DNA from: a virus
Strand: one strand, 5' to 3'
DNA length: 26,480 nucleotides
IMG/VR virus record: IMGVR_UViG_3300020202_000199
Coordinates: 1 to 26,480 of that record
Shown here: one piece after another, positions 3,431-23,789 of the stretch
Numbering within the stretch: position 1 is the first letter of the stretch
Layout of the letters: each line of letters starts with the position of its first letter
Position numbers and translations under genes: made by a program
Notes under the pieces: model-generated
Databases searched by the model: none
What the model was told of the DNA's origin: nothing
The model's input: only the letters and a program-made list of their open reading frames with translations

Positions 3431-4407
3431 CGACGCCCCCCGCCCCACGGTCGGCGGGCATAGCCGGCGTACGCCGAGATCCGAGGCCGGAACTGCGGCC
3501 GCGCGGCGCCGACCTCCTGGTCCATCGCGAGGCGCAGCATCCCGTCGGTGTATTCGGCCTTCACCTCCTGGCTGCGCGTGTCGTCTTTCTTGTCGCGATA
3601 CCAGTGGTAGAGCGCGTGGAAGACGATGAGGTGCCGGTAGCGCAGCGGGACGATCGGCTCGTCCGAGTCGGCCGATAGGTTCGCCGCCGCTACCCCAGCC
3701 GAACTCACGGCGAGATTCGACGTGATGTAGGCGTACGGGATGAGGAGGTAGTCGTTCGGCGGCTGCGCGAAGCGCACGCGCCGGATCGGCGTCGTGTTGC
3801 CGCTCGGCGCGTAGTCGAGAATGGTGGCGACCGTGACCTTCCCGGGGATCGTGTTCGTCGGGAAGCGGCGCCGGAATTCGGTCCTAGAGATGAGGTCGAT
3901 ATTCAGCGCCTCCGAGAAGCGCTGCATGTCCACCGGCCGCAGGAAGTCCGAAGCGAGGTCGTACTCGTCCTCGAAGTAGGTGTAGCTCGCCCCACTCACC
4001 GAGGCTTCCGTGAAGGCTGTCGCGAGCGTTGCCGACGTGTCGCCGCCGACCGCGGAGATGGTGTACGGCGTGCGGGAACCAGCGATCACGATCTTCCCGT
4101 TCGCCCGCATGTTCTTCACGGAGAAGTCGTTGTTCGTGTTCCACGCCGTACCGCTCCCCGTGAGCGACGTGGAGCCGCGGCTCACCGTGACCGTGCCGGT
4201 CGTGTAGTCGTCCTGCGTGCGGATGACACCGCGGCGCTCCGCCCACGGCACCTTGTAGTCGAACCCGAGGTGCATGTCGTGCAGGGCGATGTTGATGTAG
4301 CGCTTCGCTTGGTTCTCCGTCGCGGTCACGCCAGTCGTAGCTCGCACGCGGTTCTGCAGGTCCGTGAACAGGTCGGAAAAGGTAGTGAGCTGACTCGTAG
4401 TGCTCAT
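3427..4407 (-). CDS. Head-tail connector/adaptor protein, 326 aa
   Basis: The start is ATG at 4407 (MSTTSQLTTFSDLFTDLQNR), overlapping the stop of the 45-aa gene by ATGA. Residues 1-60 are helical, with the pattern 'TFSDLxxxLQNRVR...TENQAKRYINIALHDMH' typical of phage adaptor proteins that bind the portal ring. Residues about 68-150 form an inserted beta-sandwich-like section (TGTVTVSRGSTSLTGSGTAW, later YTYFEDEYDLASDF), also usual in this family. The C-terminal part returns to helix (LRYRHLIVFHALYHWYRDKK). The protein should sit below the portal and close the DNA channel, like the adaptors of other tailed phages. Recognition is by sequence pattern only. Confidence 0.75.
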   Translation of the reverse strand: MSTTSQLTTFSDLFTDLQNRVRATTGVTATENQAKRYINIALHDMHLGFDYKVPWAERRGVIRTQDDYTTGTVTVSRGSTSLTGSGTAWNTNNDFSVKNMRANGKIVIAGSRTPYTISAVGGDTSATLATAFTEASVSGASYTYFEDEYDLASDFLRPVDMQRFSEALNIDLISRTEFRRRFPTNTIPGKVTVATILDYAPSGNTTPIRRVRFAQPPNDYLLIPYAYITSNLAVSSAGVAAANLSADSDEPIVPLRYRHLIVFHALYHWYRDKKDDTRSQEVKAEYTDGMLRLAMDQEVGAARPQFRPRISAYAGYARRPWGGGRR

Positions 4408-4541
4408 GTGCCAGCCCCCAGCAGAAGCAGATGGCGCGACGTGGCGACCGGGGCGCCGCCCCCGATCGCGTAGCCACGGGTGACGACGAACTTGATCGCG
4501 CCGCCAGAGGCGTAGCCGCGCGTGACGACGGTGCGGATCAC
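4404..4541 (-). CDS. Tiny two-repeat phage protein, 45 aa, GTG start
   Basis: This starts with GTG at 4541 inside a GTGA overlap with the upstream stop and ends in an ATGA overlap with the adaptor gene. The 45 residues contain an internal repeat: TVVTRGYASGGAIKF and then VVTRGYAIGGGAP, ending in a leucine-rich tail. Short 'VxTRGY' repeat proteins are often found next to connector genes in phages; their role is not known to me. The precise coupling at both ends, in an otherwise empty 130-base gap, and the protein-level repeat make it a likely real gene. Confidence 0.7.
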   Translation of the reverse strand: MIRTVVTRGYASGGAIKFVVTRGYAIGGGAPVATSRHLLLLGAGT

Positions 4542-5575
4542 GTGCGCACCGCCGAGGTCGGGTTGGTTGCGTCATCGAGCGTCACGACGAACGCCGTGGT
4601 GGCGTTGTCGAGCTTCTTGACGGTGAGGCTCGTGCCAGAGATGCCGAATTGCATGAGCATCTGGTGAATCGCGAAGAGGGCCTGCACGGGCGTCGGCGCC
4701 GCGCCGTTGGCGGCGTACGCCTCGGTCATCGCCGTCGTGCCTTTGGCGAAGTCGTAGGTCGCCGTGAGGGCGTAGCCCGTCTTGTCGTTATTGGTGCCGA
4801 CCGTCACTGCGGCCGTCACGCTTCCCACGGCCCCGCTCACAGCGGCCACGGTCTGATCCGTGTCGATGTTGGTGCCGGAAAGGTTCTGCGCAGTCGTGGG
4901 GCTGCCGATGTTTCCCCAGTCGAGCCCCGCCTCGCCGCCGGAGGACACGTCGAGCGCGCGGCCCGCCACCGTCGGCTGCAGCGGCTGGGGGAACATGACC
5001 GAGATGTTGTCGCCGGCCGCAGCGGTGAATGTCGTCCCAGCCGCGAGCGTGACCGTCTTCGTCGCCCCGGTGTAGTCGGAGATCACGGCCCAGCCACACT
5101 GCACGGCCGAGGCGATGTCGTGGATGATGACCGAGCAGCCGTTCAACGCATCGTCTTCTGCGGGCCCGCTCGTGAGCGTGAACGAGGTCTGCGAGGCAAG
5201 GGTCGCGATCGTGGTGTCCAGCATCGCGCCCTGGTAGCCGATGCGGAAACGGCCGATCCAGCCGCCCACCGTCACGCCGTCGATCGTCACCGAGTCGATC
5301 GCGACGAGGTACTCTGACCCGGCATTCCAGAATCCGGCGGTCGTGTTGTCCGCTAGGTCGATGACGGCAAGATGCTTGCCGGTCTTCGTGTCGAAGTCGG
5401 TCGTGGCCGTGTAGCCCGCCGTGCTCGCCCGCTCCGTGGTGCTGCCGTCCTTGTAGACAAGGATGTCCCCCACGGCGTAGTTCGTCATCGTTATCGACGA
5501 CCCGTCGTCCTTGTCAAAGGACGAGAACGGAATGCGGACCGTGGAGCCTGGCCGAACCGTGCCGAGGTCGATCAC
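4538..5575 (-). CDS. Beta-sandwich phage structural protein, 345 aa
   Basis: ATG at 5575 overlaps the upstream stop (ATGA). Residues 1-115 (GTVRPGSTVRIPFSSFD... to GWIGRFRIGYQG) look like an Ig-like or beta-sandwich domain. The middle is T/S/A-rich and resembles a fibrous linker. The last 75 residues carry a helical AAPTPVQALFAIHQMLMQFG followed by ISGTSLTVKKLDNATTAFVV, a module I recognise from many phage structural operons without a settled name. There are no catalytic motifs. Placed just before the connector, it may be a minor virion protein or head fibre. Function is inferred from position only. Confidence 0.6.
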   Translation of the reverse strand: MIDLGTVRPGSTVRIPFSSFDKDDGSSITMTNYAVGDILVYKDGSTTERASTAGYTATTDFDTKTGKHLAVIDLADNTTAGFWNAGSEYLVAIDSVTIDGVTVGGWIGRFRIGYQGAMLDTTIATLASQTSFTLTSGPAEDDALNGCSVIIHDIASAVQCGWAVISDYTGATKTVTLAAGTTFTAAAGDNISVMFPQPLQPTVAGRALDVSSGGEAGLDWGNIGSPTTAQNLSGTNIDTDQTVAAVSGAVGSVTAAVTVGTNNDKTGYALTATYDFAKGTTAMTEAYAANGAAPTPVQALFAIHQMLMQFGISGTSLTVKKLDNATTAFVVTLDDATNPTSAVRT

Positions 5576-13482: not shown

Positions 13483-13917
13483 ATGGACTTCCTGACCGAG
13501 ACCGAGGCCGCCTACATCGCCGGATTCATCGACGGCGAGGGAACGTTCAACGTGCTGCGGACGGCGCAGCGATTCCTCGTCGAAATGTCGGTAGGCCAGA
13601 TCGACCGGCGGCCGCTCGACTTCCTCATGGAAAAAATGGGCGGGACGCTATGCCAGGTGCAGCCACGTCCGGGCACGAACAAGCGCCCGCTCTGGGTCTA
13701 CAAGCTCGCGTCCGGCCGGCGCTTCGACTTCTACGTCCCGCAGTTGCTGCCGTTCTTGGTTCTCAAGCGGCGGAAGGCGGAACTCGGGCTCGAACTACGG
13801 GCGCGCATCCGGGCGAAGCCGAGAATTCGCCTCAAGGCACGGTGCGGCGAGGAATGGGACGCGCGCATGGCAATCGTGCAGCGCGCCGCTGCCGAGCAGG
13901 CGATGTGGGGCGCCTAA
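13483..13917 (+). CDS. LAGLIDADG homing endonuclease, freestanding, 144 aa
   Basis: The start ATG at 13483 has GGAGG eight bases upstream; the ATG 30 bases earlier has no such site. Residues about 8-22 (AAYIAGFIDGEGTFNV) contain the single LAGLIDADG helix with its catalytic acidic residue (DGEG). The rest fits the family: RRPLDFLMEKMGGTLCQVQP, then WVYKLASGRRFDFYVPQLLP and a final LKRRKAELGLEL helix. One motif means that it should act as a homodimer cutting a pseudo-palindromic site. It is the only plus-strand gene in the head region and is not inside a visible intron or intein. Its stop overlaps the stop of the facing gene at 13914. Confidence 0.88.
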   Translation: MDFLTETEAAYIAGFIDGEGTFNVLRTAQRFLVEMSVGQIDRRPLDFLMEKMGGTLCQVQPRPGTNKRPLWVYKLASGRRFDFYVPQLLPFLVLKRRKAELGLELRARIRAKPRIRLKARCGEEWDARMAIVQRAAAEQAMWGA

Positions 13918-20347: not shown

Positions 20348-20807
20348 CCGTGACCGCCTTCCTGATCTTGTTGACGAGGCGCCGCACCTCGTTCAACTCC
20401 TCCTCGCGGCGCCATAAACGCATCTCCACCTCGCGCCAGTGCTGGACGACGAGGCAGAACTGCCGCCGCTCGCTCCTCGCCTCGCGCTCCAACTCCTCCC
20501 AGCACACCGACTGGACACGGACCATCCGCGAGCGCCACATGAAGTCCAGCGGACCCCAGTAGTCGAGAATCGCCCGCTCCACAGTCCATGTGCCGGGAGG
20601 ACCCCAGCACAGCCGCCTCGCCATCGCCCGCACAATCCGCCGCGCCTCCTTCAGCCGCAGCGGGCGGCGCCTGGAAATGCACCTGAGCACGACCCGTATC
20701 TCGTCCACCGGCCGCCACTCGAGCCGCGGGTCCAGCTCCCGCAGCCGGCAGCGCTGCCGCCAGCGGTACGCATTCACCGCCATCCCTGAGTGGTACCCGC
20801 TGATCAC
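20253..20807 (-). CDS. Arg/Trp-rich uncharacterised protein, 184 aa, GTG start
   Basis: The GTG at 20807 overlaps the stop of the XRE gene by GTGA; ATG at 20783 is the alternative. The sequence begins VISGYHSGMAVNAYRWRQRC and is strongly basic with many R, W and E; helices are predicted (RLKEARRIVRAMARRLCWGP, VRRLVNKIRKAVTDERKRFG). No HTH or catalytic motif is clear. Its position after a regulator and before terminase resembles late-regulator slots, but this is a guess. The last 31 residues lie in another frame over the next gene, so the natural end may be unstable in evolution. Confidence 0.5.
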   Translation of the reverse strand: MISGYHSGMAVNAYRWRQRCRLRELDPRLEWRPVDEIRVVLRCISRRRPLRLKEARRIVRAMARRLCWGPPGTWTVERAILDYWGPLDFMWRSRMVRVQSVCWEELEREARSERRQFCLVVQHWREVEMRLWRREEELNEVRRLVNKIRKAVTDERKRFGQGGNHPSHREGDEKRAVADPAGVV

Positions 20808-21040
20808 TGACCGCGCTCCCTCAACTCCACCACGAGGTCGCACTCCAGAGCCCAGGCCAGCTGCTCCAAGGTCCCGAGGTTGAAGTTCGTCCGGTCCGGC
20901 TTCTCGAAAGCCGACACCGCCGACTGGTTCACCCCCAAGGTCTCGGCCAACTCCCCCTGCGACATCCCGCGCAGCTGCCTCAACTCCCGCACCCGCGCCG
21001 CCAGCCTCGCCCCCAACGTGCTCTGCACCACCTCCGCCAT
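20804..21040 (-). CDS. XRE/Cro-family HTH regulator, 78 aa
   Basis: ATG at 21040. Residues 12-67 form a classic HTH_3 domain: LAARVRELRQLRGMSQGELA, then ETLGVNQSAVSAFEKPDRTN with recognition helix about 38-49, and LGTLEQLAWALECDLVVELR. Closest in style to short antitoxin-type or phage regulators (HigA/HipB-like), though no toxin gene is adjacent. A 12-bp perfect palindrome (GTAGGCGCCTAC) lies at 21066-21077, 26 bases before the start, where it can overlap the promoter; autorepression is likely. The gene heads the whole late minus-strand operon. Confidence 0.8.
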   Translation of the reverse strand: MAEVVQSTLGARLAARVRELRQLRGMSQGELAETLGVNQSAVSAFEKPDRTNFNLGTLEQLAWALECDLVVELRERGQ

Positions 21041-21518: not shown

Positions 21519-21547
21519 TTGACAGGATTGCACTCATTGAGTGATGC
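21519..21547 (+). promoter_or_regulatory. Possible promoter of plus-strand cassette
   Basis: A consensus -35 box TTGACA (21519-21524) is followed after 17 bases by TGATGC (21542-21547), a poor -10. It lies about 60-90 bases before the first cassette gene at 21608 and is the best candidate in the region. The weak -10 leaves doubt. Confidence 0.35.
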
Positions 21548-21607
21548 TCGGCGCGTCGTCTATCGACGGCACCGCGCCTCGGGTTCTCAGGGGTCGAGGA
21601 GGAAAAG

Positions 21608-21778
21608 ATGGCACGCAAGGCTCGCGTTTGCGCGAAGACGCTTCACCGCTGCCACGACGGTCCGTGGACTGGGCATGTGCTGGCGCTCACCGGAAGCGCT
21701 GGAAATTCCACGGGATGGTTGCAGATCGGGACGCTGCGCGGACGCTACGTCAGCGGCTGCTGGGAGGCGATGCAATGA
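21608..21778 (+). CDS. Small cassette protein, 56 aa
   Basis: ATG at 21608 is preceded by GGAGGAAAAG, an excellent ribosome site. The 56 residues begin MARKARVCAKTLHRCHDGPW, are basic with Cys8, Cys15 and Cys51, and have a G/S/T-rich middle with tryptophans (LTGSAGNSTGWLQIGTLRGR). The stop overlaps the next ATG (ATGA). No family was recognised. It is the lead gene of the reversed cassette. Confidence 0.7.
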   Translation: MARKARVCAKTLHRCHDGPWTGHVLALTGSAGNSTGWLQIGTLRGRYVSGCWEAMQ

Positions 21779-22371
21779 GGCGCCGCCCCTCCCCCGAGAA
21801 CCGCTACATCCCGCAGGGTTATACGATCGTCGTGCGGTCCAAGGCGGCGCCCGCGGTCGTGTACCTGAGCGCCGAAGGCCGCCCCGCTGCCATGGGGTTC
21901 TACGGCAAGGCCGAGCGCCCCGCGTTCCACCATACCTACCGCTCAGAGGAGCGGCGCGCCCAGCACGTGGCGCAGTTCCTTGCCAGCTGCGAGGCACTCG
22001 ACAAGCGCCGCGAGGAGCGCCGAGCCCAGCGCAAGGCCTTCGCCCATACGCTCCAGGTCGGCGATGTCCTGAGCACCTGCTGGGGCTATGATCAGACGAA
22101 CGTCGAGTTCTTTCAAGTGGTGCGCCTCATCGGCGCCTCCATGGTCGCGGTACGCGAGCTGGCTCGGGAGACCGAGGAAACCGGCTTCATGTCCGGCAAG
22201 TGCGTCCCGGTCCTAGGGAAGTTCATCGGGCCCGAGCTGAGGAAGCGCGTGCTCGAGGGGAATAGGCTCGACATCCACGGGGGCTTCGGCTACGCGACCA
22301 AGGTCGAAATGCGCGAGGTCGCCCCGGGCGTCAAGGTCGCCGACGCCTCCCACTGGTCGTCGTACGCATGA
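21775..22371 (+). CDS. Conserved mobile-element protein with GYDQTN motif, 198 aa
   Basis: ATG at 21775 (MRRRPSPENRYIPQGYTIVV) overlaps the previous stop, and this decides the start against the longer open frame from 21541. Residues 20-65 are a small beta-rich part (VVRSKAAPAVVYLSAEGRPA), 60-92 a basic helix (EERRAQHVAQFLASCEALDK), 93-125 the most typical part, VGDVLSTCWGYDQTNVEFFQ, and the C-terminal section has strands ending GVKVADASHWSSYA. The 'GD-L-SxWGYDQTN-xFxQVV' motif recurs in proteins of phages and other mobile elements in Gram-negatives; as far as I know its function is undescribed. No catalytic residues can be pointed at. Confidence 0.75.
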   Translation: MRRRPSPENRYIPQGYTIVVRSKAAPAVVYLSAEGRPAAMGFYGKAERPAFHHTYRSEERRAQHVAQFLASCEALDKRREERRAQRKAFAHTLQVGDVLSTCWGYDQTNVEFFQVVRLIGASMVAVRELARETEETGFMSGKCVPVLGKFIGPELRKRVLEGNRLDIHGGFGYATKVEMREVAPGVKVADASHWSSYA

Positions 22372-22613
22372 GCGCGAATCCACTTCGGCAGCTCACCTAT
22401 GCGACCATCATGGCCGCCGGCCGGGACGCGGCCTACCGCAGCATGCGCCGCGCCGGCCGGACACGATGGAACTTGGACGACTGGAACGCGGCCGCCGCCG
22501 AGGTCGCGCGCCTCGTCCCATACCTGGAGCCTCCGATTGCCCCACCCCAACCGCGGCAAGCCCCCACACCTTCGCTTGAACCCGCTCCCCGAAGACGTAC
22601 GCGCCGCGCGTGA
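22368..22613 (+). CDS. Small cassette protein, 81 aa
   Basis: ATG at 22368 overlaps the stop of the 198-aa gene (ATGA). It begins MSANPLRQLTYATIMAAGRD and is helical for 50 residues (AYRSMRRAGRTRWNLDDWNA, AAAEVARLVPYL), then proline/arginine-rich. Length and composition suggest a small basic protein; the 'W-x2-(D/E)W-x-A' helix part is seen in other phage small proteins next to the GYDQTN family, from recall. The function is unknown. Confidence 0.65.
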   Translation: MSANPLRQLTYATIMAAGRDAAYRSMRRAGRTRWNLDDWNAAAAEVARLVPYLEPPIAPPQPRQAPTPSLEPAPRRRTRRA

Positions 22614-22893
22614 GCGCTTGGGTCTGAGCGTGGGCGAGGCGGCCGCCCTCGTCCACTGCTCGGCCCAATCCTGGCGCCAGTGGGAGGCGCCCAGGGACTC
22701 GCCAGACCATCGCCGGATGCATGCCGCATTCTGGGAGCTGTTCCAGCTCAAGGCGCGCGCCAAGGCCGCCGTCAGGCGCCCAGCGCGCACGCGCTCAGGT
22801 GCGCTCCCAGATCAAGGCCTTCAACCAGTGGATGGCGAGCCCGTTTCGAACCTCGCGCCCACCGACCCGAAGGACAGTCCAGCCCAGGAGTAG
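22537..22893 (+). CDS. HTH-type cassette regulator, 118 aa, probable TTG start
   Basis: The start is taken as TTG at 22537 (MPHPNRGKPPHLRLNPLPED), with a TGGAG seven bases upstream and a typical N-terminus for this type; a TTG at 22576 is the other option. Residues 19-52 form an XRE-like HTH (VRAARERLGLSVGEAAALVH, then CSAQSWRQWE), and RRMHAAFWELFQLKAR is a recurring end of such proteins. The last about 40 residues (from AKAAVRRPARTRSG) are low-complexity and run 99 bases antisense over the 3' end of the Vsr-like gene, so they may be a stop-loss extension. It may regulate the cassette. Confidence 0.6.
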   Translation: MPHPNRGKPPHLRLNPLPEDVRAARERLGLSVGEAAALVHCSAQSWRQWEAPRDSPDHRRMHAAFWELFQLKARAKAAVRRPARTRSGALPDQGLQPVDGEPVSNLAPTDPKDSPAQE

Positions 22894-23154
22894 CGCCCGT
22901 GCGTGCTTCTCGATGTCCGCATGGAAGCGCTCCGAGATCCGGTGCACCTCGCCATCGACTTCGACCGCGAGCATGAGCCGCGGCCAAGCGAAGTCCATGC
23001 GCCATTTCCGGTCCGGGGCGAAGACGTATTCGCGCTCCGGGGGCGGGAGTTTCTCGGCGCGGATGTGCAGGGCGAGCGTCTCCTCGAGCTGGGAGACGGG
23101 CTTGCCAGAGAAGCGCTTGGGGAGCGTGAGGAGATCCACGGCGAGGCTGCTCAT
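22795..23154 (-). CDS. Vsr/DUF559-like endonuclease, 119 aa
   Basis: ATG at 23154 overlaps the upstream stop (ATGA). After a helical start, residues 37-100 contain a PD-(D/E)xK-type nuclease core: PPEREYVFAPDRKWRMDFAW (E40, D54) and AVEVDGEVHRISERFHADIE (E65, D67, H71, E82) with a following GWTVLRVGGREV strand. This pattern is that of phage Vsr-fold nucleases often annotated as Holliday-junction or DNA repair enzymes. It closes the replication operon, which fits branch resolution or DNA processing. The exact substrate cannot be told. The end overlaps the facing cassette gene by 99 bases. Confidence 0.75.
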   Translation of the reverse strand: MSSLAVDLLTLPKRFSGKPVSQLEETLALHIRAEKLPPPEREYVFAPDRKWRMDFAWPRLMLAVEVDGEVHRISERFHADIEKHARALLLGWTVLRVGGREVRNGLAIHWLKALIWERT

Positions 23155-23789
23155 TTGCGCACCTGCAGGGCTTTCGTCGATTCAAGAAAATCCGAGGCCT
23201 TGCGCGCGGGCGCGAGCGACTCCCGGCCCTTTGCCATGACCTGGGCTGCGCGCTCGGGGTCGCCAACCGTGATCGGAGCCTCGATGGGGAAACCTTGGCG
23301 GGCATTCTCCGATTCAGAAATGCCCACCAGGCGCGCGCGGTACTCGGGCACGATGCTTCTGCCCCTCAAGCCCCTGTAGCGCGCCTCGAACTCCTTCCCG
23401 CGGAAGGGCAGTTCCTCGTCGGTCACGCGGCACAGCTGCGGCCAGCCCCCCATGTCGTCGACCACGGCGTGGATCAGCGGATCGTCGAAGACCACGCTCT
23501 GCCACGCGCCCACGATCCGGATGGCCCGCACGACCTTGGCCCACGCGGCGAGCGCCGAGTCCACGGTCGAGCCCTCGATCATCCGCACCACGTCCGCCGG
23601 CTTCGGGCAGAACTGCCCCGCGTCCGGGTTCATGGCATGCCGCCCAAGCGCATCGCGCACCGCGGCCAGGTCGTAGGCCTTCAGCGCCCCCCACCAGATG
23701 CCCATGACCATCGGCGACAGCTCCACGCGATAGAGCGCATAGACGGCCGTCAACGCCTCCGCGAACGCGGAGCGATCGGCTTCCCTCAT
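23151..23789 (-). CDS. Replication P/helicase-loader-like protein, 212 aa
   Basis: ATG at 23789 overlaps the preceding stop (ATGA). The N-terminus (MREADRSAFAEALTAVYALY) and LSPMVMGIWWGALKAYDLAA are characteristic of phage proteins in the P-like replication family (DUF6475 type) encoded after an initiator gene. A region GQFCPKPADVVRMIEGSTVD is also usual. The C-terminal half has GWPQLCRVTDEELPFRGKEF and a basic tail. It probably helps load the host helicase at the origin. Family recognition is by pattern; loader action is inferred from position after the initiator. Confidence 0.7.
   Translation of the reverse strand: MREADRSAFAEALTAVYALYRVELSPMVMGIWWGALKAYDLAAVRDALGRHAMNPDAGQFCPKPADVVRMIEGSTVDSALAAWAKVVRAIRIVGAWQSVVFDDPLIHAVVDDMGGWPQLCRVTDEELPFRGKEFEARYRGLRGRSIVPEYRARLVGISESENARQGFPIEAPITVGDPERAAQVMAKGRESLAPARKASDFLESTKALQVRK

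Follow-up and report, generated by a model that had tools for sequence, protein, structure and literature searches.

A reversed phage cassette resembling an acr-aca operon, with a GYDQTN-family protein as candidate anti-defence effector

The stretch of viral DNA analysed here (the window: 26,480 nucleotides, positions 1 to 26,480 of IMG/VR record IMGVR_UViG_3300020202_000199) carries a cassette of four short genes that is probably an operon of the acr-aca type, with the GYDQTN-family protein of ORF 2 as its candidate anti-defence effector. By sequence and predicted fold, the last gene product, ORF 4, is a relative of the repressor Aca10, and it very probably regulates its own cassette.

The four reading frames (Table 1) agree in position with those of an initial annotation of the window, which had described coupled plus-strand genes of 56, 198, 81 and 118 aa at 21608-22893, opposed by the genes on both sides and set between replication and late genes. 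That setting stands: on the left, all on the minus strand, are the XRE gene, an 89-aa gene, TerS and TerL, and on the right, also on the minus strand, are the DUF559/phrog_503 gene, DUF6475 and the replication initiator, with the 3′ ends of ORF 4 and the DUF559/phrog_503 gene overlapping by 99 bp. The strong ribosome site reported for the start of the cassette is present as well. Coupling holds for ORFs 1 to 3, both junctions being 4-bp overlaps (ATGA); ORF 4 differs, since it begins within ORF 3: with 77 bp common to the two, coupling here takes the form of an overlap and not of a simple stop-start. As to whether the frames might be untranslated, the case named in the same annotation as one that would count against it, codon-position GC and codon-usage scores support translation of ORF 2, the non-overlapping part of ORF 3, and ORF 4, and place the change of coding frame from ORF 3 to ORF 4 at about 22536; for ORF 1 the same scores give weak support. 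Sequence searches gave no convincing relatives for ORF 1 or ORF 3, so translation of these two is argued from frame statistics and overlaps only. Elsewhere in the window, another plus-strand ORF (13483-13917) stands amid minus-strand late genes, and its N-terminus (TEAAYIAGFIDGEGTF) resembles, by reading alone, a LAGLIDADG homing endonuclease.

Table 1. Features of the cassette and its flanks (positions in the window)
Feature	Position	Strand	Remarks
TTGACA	21519..21524	+	perfect -35-like hexamer of cassette promoter; sequence
CACTCA-T-TGAGTG	21531..21543		operator candidate; inverted repeat; core CTCATTGAG as in Aca10 operator
GATGCT	21543..21548	+	weak -10-like hexamer, tentative; 18-nt spacer; sequence only; cf. 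TATGCT in L246
RBS AGGAGG	21597..21602	+	5 nt 5′ of ORF 1 ATG; sequence
ORF 1	21608..21778	+	56 aa; candidate small effector, without relatives; weak coding statistics
ORF 2	21775..22371	+	198-aa GYDQTN-family protein (phrog_37844); main effector candidate
ORF 3	22368..22613	+	81 aa; candidate small effector, without convincing relatives
ORF 4	22537..22893	+	118-aa Aca10-like HTH repressor (candidate); TTG start; GGAG ~7 nt upstream
Left flank, XRE gene	20804..21040	-	upstream of TerS-TerL genes; outside cassette
Right flank, DUF559/phrog_503 nuclease-like gene	22795..23154	-	convergent with ORF 4; outside cassette

The statement that the cassette closes with an HTH protein can be made more specific. 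ORF 4 passes the Pfam cut-off for HTH_31 (E=1.8e-6), and its best solved relative is Aca10 itself (PDB 7xi5; phmmer E=1.6e-11 over residues 15-74), the repressor of the acrIC7-acrIC6-aca10 operon of Pseudomonas citronellolis (PMC9410881). The AlphaFold2 model of ORF 4, with pLDDT >90 in the HTH core, has 7xi5 as its first-ranked Foldseek match (TMt 0.91, rmsd 1.2), followed by AcrIF24 (an Acr-Aca protein), HigA2 and Aca1. In alignment with 7xi5, ORF 4 retains R44, the critical DNA-contact residue of Aca10, and the dimer residue E52; at G49, also a dimer residue (PMC9410881), it has Ala, and Q22 and Q37 are replaced by Val and Arg.

The promoter-like site of the cassette gives this regulator a candidate target. 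Six nucleotides past the TTGACA begins the inverted repeat, which shares the 9-bp core CTCATTGAG with the proven Aca10 site (IR2), AATACGCTCA-T-TGAGCGTATT, located between the -35 and -10 (PMC9410881). The core occurs once in the window against 0.13 expected, CNCTCATTGAGNG once against 0.02 expected, and the composite TTGACAN{0,10}CTCANTGAG once, with no occurrence in 100 shuffles. The repeat at 21531-21543 is not significant on length alone, and its weight is raised only by the match to the Aca10 operator; the palindrome had been recorded before the published operator was compared with it. Of 3669 called genes in the loci examined, 11 have upstream a TTGAC[AG] with an embedded inverted repeat behind it (null 0.0005), and 5 of these 11 belong to Aca10-like operons. 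Regulation of the cassette by ORF 4 is well supported from the sequence, and the repeat in the cassette promoter is the candidate cognate site to which ORF 4 would bind.

The pairing of operator and regulator recurs in other loci. The exact Aca10 core operator, ACGCTCATTGAGCGT, was found at 77 loci of viral contigs, a number that by a rough estimate is about what chance would give, so that only the loci paired with an Aca10-like HTH are informative; there are 10 of these, with the HTH encoded 177-1354 bp downstream on the matching strand, and in several the repeat begins a few bases after TTGACA or TTGACG. One of the 10, L150, is the published acrIC7-acrIC6-aca10 operon, where TTGCAA-N16-TATTCT carries the identical repeat and is followed by a 94-aa gene, a 118-aa gene and Aca10, the whole operon again being reversed against its neighbour genes. 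On a Klebsiella plasmid (L130:3440-4192), a 148-aa gene and an Aca10-like HTH gene follow a 21-bp operator that matches Aca10 IR2 exactly; we regard this operon as a good candidate for an anti-CRISPR locus. In the P2-like Pseudomonas phage Sirocco (L129:3826-4402), a 62-aa gene and an Aca10-like HTH form a reversed pair amid late genes. The 104- and 118-aa proteins at L138:7209-7523 and L150:8264-8620, both in operator-marked Aca10-like operons, look related by eye.

The core of the cassette also recurs, in a phage whose terminases are unrelated. Contig L246 (IMGVR_UViG_3300012845_000019) has a reversed cassette of a 61-aa gene, GYDQTN and an Aca10-like HTH (36% identity to the window for GYDQTN; 49%, E=6e-22, for the HTH), in the same slot and orientation between the terminase and a 645-aa gene that by eye is of replication type, and its TerL and TerS are unrelated to those of the window (E 0.16 and 0.95). 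Its promoter, TTGACG-N17-TATGCT, encloses CATACGAAC-ACG-GTTCGTATG. A search for the same four-gene set in unrelated phages and plasmids, proposed in the initial annotation, therefore found the core (small gene, GYDQTN and HTH) and not the exact set, and the case that was to refute it, a fixed module of one phage genus, is not borne out, since the core occurs with unrelated terminases. The slot itself is variable: the closest terminase relative, L091 (TerL 61%), has different reversed ORFs in it, and L094 and L095, which share DUF6475 and the phrog_503 gene, have different genes after phrog_503. DUF6475 and the phrog_503/DUF559 gene (22795-23789 in the window, minus strand) stay adjacent in L094 and L095, a conserved border of the accessory slot. 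The evidence supports the view of the cassette as an accessory unit, opposed to its neighbours and replaced in relatives; that it is independently expressed, as had been proposed, accords with its promoter-like site, embedded inverted repeat and putative repressor.

ORF 2 is the most likely effector. It is homologous over its full length to phrog_37844, the GYDQTN family (E=1.1e-25), and keeps the WGYDQTN core that is invariant across the family. Structure prediction, recommended in the initial annotation, gave a confident model (pLDDT 90.5) comprising a sheet at the N-terminus, a long helix and, at the C-terminus, an all-beta domain; none of the PDB folds matched it (best query TM about 0.2), and four viral fold matches at E≤0.001 are to uncharacterised or nameless proteins. 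Pfam, NCBIfam and PDB sequence searches gave no relative of GYDQTN, and two Pfam matches of ORF 2, Protamine_P2 and IMEF_Flp, fall far under cut-off and were taken as compositional. The assertion that the family occurs in other mobile elements proved correct on a large scale: members occur in 2,791 plasmid records (pOXA-48-type, IncX1 and IncI2 plasmids included), of which 2,565 are typed as conjugative, and in at least 584 viral-contig stretches, 10 phage records and 57 genome-contig loci spread over many phyla. On plasmids the protein often consists of just the C-terminal domain, about 100-112 aa long, unlike the full-length ORF 2. A 592-aa GYDQTN protein of Thiobacillus (L038:516-2294) has a long extra N-terminal region, which suggests a domain fusion. 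No literature naming GYDQTN or its plasmid accessions was found.

The neighbourhoods of the family point towards counter-defence. On a pOXA-48 plasmid, GYDQTN keeps company with an antirestriction gene and ssb, all oriented towards mobA; on an IncX1 plasmid it lies near ddp1/mobP1, directly 3′ of an HTH gene of the same general type; and in Legionella it immediately precedes a gene of the Antirestrict family. Judged by gene order and by what is generally known of these plasmids, the pOXA-48-type and IncX1 copies probably lie in leading regions. Leading regions of plasmids are anti-defence islands, enriched in anti-defence genes (PMC11541004). In phages the family favours reversed islands: among the 36 viral clusters with both strand flips visible, 23 have GYDQTN in an island of at most 6 genes and 3 kb. 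Six of 110 GYDQTN clusters carry an Aca10-like HTH at E<1e-5, in every case on the same strand and at most 1.3 kb downstream; the HMM used here was seeded with the window, Aca10 and plasmid or phage loci outside the counted set, and is a cleaner test than a general HTH scan. That general scan gave 17 matches in the first kb downstream and none in the kb upstream; the enrichment is in part circular, since some of the HMM seeds had been taken from the very loci that were counted. HTH genes of the tested types were found downstream in none of 44 genome-contig clusters, and the coupling of GYDQTN to an HTH therefore looks specific to phages. A pooled scan of downstream neighbours contained one match to AcrIC5 (E=2.8e-17), assigned to the pool rather than to a single gene and for that reason not counted as evidence.

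Taken as an acr-aca operon, the cassette would work as follows. Once the DNA has entered the cell, the small genes and GYDQTN would be transcribed from the strong promoter (TTGACA), and the GYDQTN protein, perhaps aided by the products of the small ORFs, would block a host defence, whether CRISPR-Cas, restriction or another. A dimer of ORF 4 would then occupy CACTCATTGAGTG, which lies between the -35 and -10, and silence the operon, and because of this proposed shutdown the effector would appear as an early burst. That it counters a host defence, one of the roles raised in the initial annotation, we judge probable, on grounds of association. Against the acr-aca reading stand the lack of a known Acr in the cassette, the weak -10, the loss of Q22 and Q37 of Aca10, and the fact that Aca10-like HTHs also occur in a toxin-antitoxin module of the Fic/VbhA type.

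A reversed slot filled with variable genes would also suit a moron expressed from the prophage to benefit host fitness or to exclude superinfection, as opposed to early counter-defence. In the pooled neighbour scan, one gene downstream of GYDQTN in another locus matches the superinfection-exclusion gene GP17, which speaks for that alternative. We nevertheless consider it unlikely, since an operator embedded in the promoter, with an Aca-type repressor, better fits a self-limiting burst than steady lysogenic expression, and the position of GYDQTN close to probable transfer origins on plasmids accords with early establishment.

The occurrence of Aca10-like HTHs in a Fic/VbhA-type module is what places a toxin-antitoxin or addiction system among the main rivals, with GYDQTN or a small ORF as toxin and the HTH as autoregulating antitoxin, in the order of HigBA. 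Aca10 resembles HigA2, and on Acidovorax/Paracidovorax plasmids (L123 and L125, about 3986-5285) an Aca10-like HTH is joined in a fusion with a VbhA-type antitoxin, and a Fic gene comes next; in L125 a related palindrome, ATACGCGCATTGCGCGTAT, lies upstream of the module. A toxin-antitoxin system nonetheless seems improbable, since GYDQTN has no fixed partner: it is solo in L012-type phages, its downstream genes vary between plasmids and genomes, and its downstream HTH partners are of several types and missing from the genome clusters counted above. Moreover, PDB sequence and fold searches found no toxin fold for it. The position between replication and late genes would also suit a core module for regulation or replication that belongs to one phage group and plays no part in conflict. 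This is very improbable, since other genes fill the slot in the closest terminase relative, and GYDQTN is spread across unrelated phages, plasmids and many phyla of bacteria.

Although GYDQTN is present on thousands of sequenced conjugative plasmids and in viral stretches by the hundred, Pfam has no entry for it and none of its relatives is solved. The link to an Aca10-type repressor and operator makes an anonymous gene a concrete, testable candidate for anti-defence. We propose, tentatively and with somewhat more doubt than belief, that the family is a broad, undescribed group of anti-defence effectors, which phages deploy from reversed cassettes under Aca control, and major groups of conjugative resistance plasmids from their probable leading regions, against a defence target common to many phyla. 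The approach also gives a handle for searches, promoter-embedded CTCAWTGAG/ATACG palindromes together with an Aca10-like HTH, which here yielded further candidate operons.

Among the closest known systems is the Fic/VbhA module of the Acidovorax plasmids, which has the Aca10-like HTH domain and, in L125, a palindrome upstream, but differs in that its HTH is fused to an antitoxin-type domain ahead of the Fic gene, and in having no GYDQTN. AcaFinder defines an acr-aca short-gene operon by one strand, gaps <250 bp, proteins <200 aa, one HTH gene and at least one homologue of a known Acr (PMC9765179). The cassette has the layout, with all four genes overlapping and one HTH_31 protein; no known-Acr homologue was found in it by searches of ORFs 1-3 in Pfam, of PHROGs, NCBIfam and PADLOC, and of PDB with the GYDQTN profile. 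Aca-like genes are found widely, whether or not acr genes accompany them (PMC9410906). Contig L246 is alike in its small gene, GYDQTN, Aca10-like HTH, reversed orientation and slot between terminase and replication-type genes, and its promoter-embedded repeat spans 19 bp, as the Aca10 site does; it differs in having no third small gene, another first gene and the operator half-site ATACGAAC. From the acrIC7-acrIC6-aca10 operon, the cassette differs in that no homology was seen between the upstream proteins, in the 118 aa of ORF 4 with its N- and C-terminal extensions (65 aa in Aca10), and in operator arms of 6 bp rather than 10 bp, with CGCTCA changed to CACTCA; the repeat centre lies 13 nt past the -35, versus 11-12 in related phage Aca10-like operons. 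What the two have in common is the operator core, an inverted repeat between the -35 and -10, short genes, a repressor of the Aca10 family encoded last, and an orientation reversed against the neighbours.
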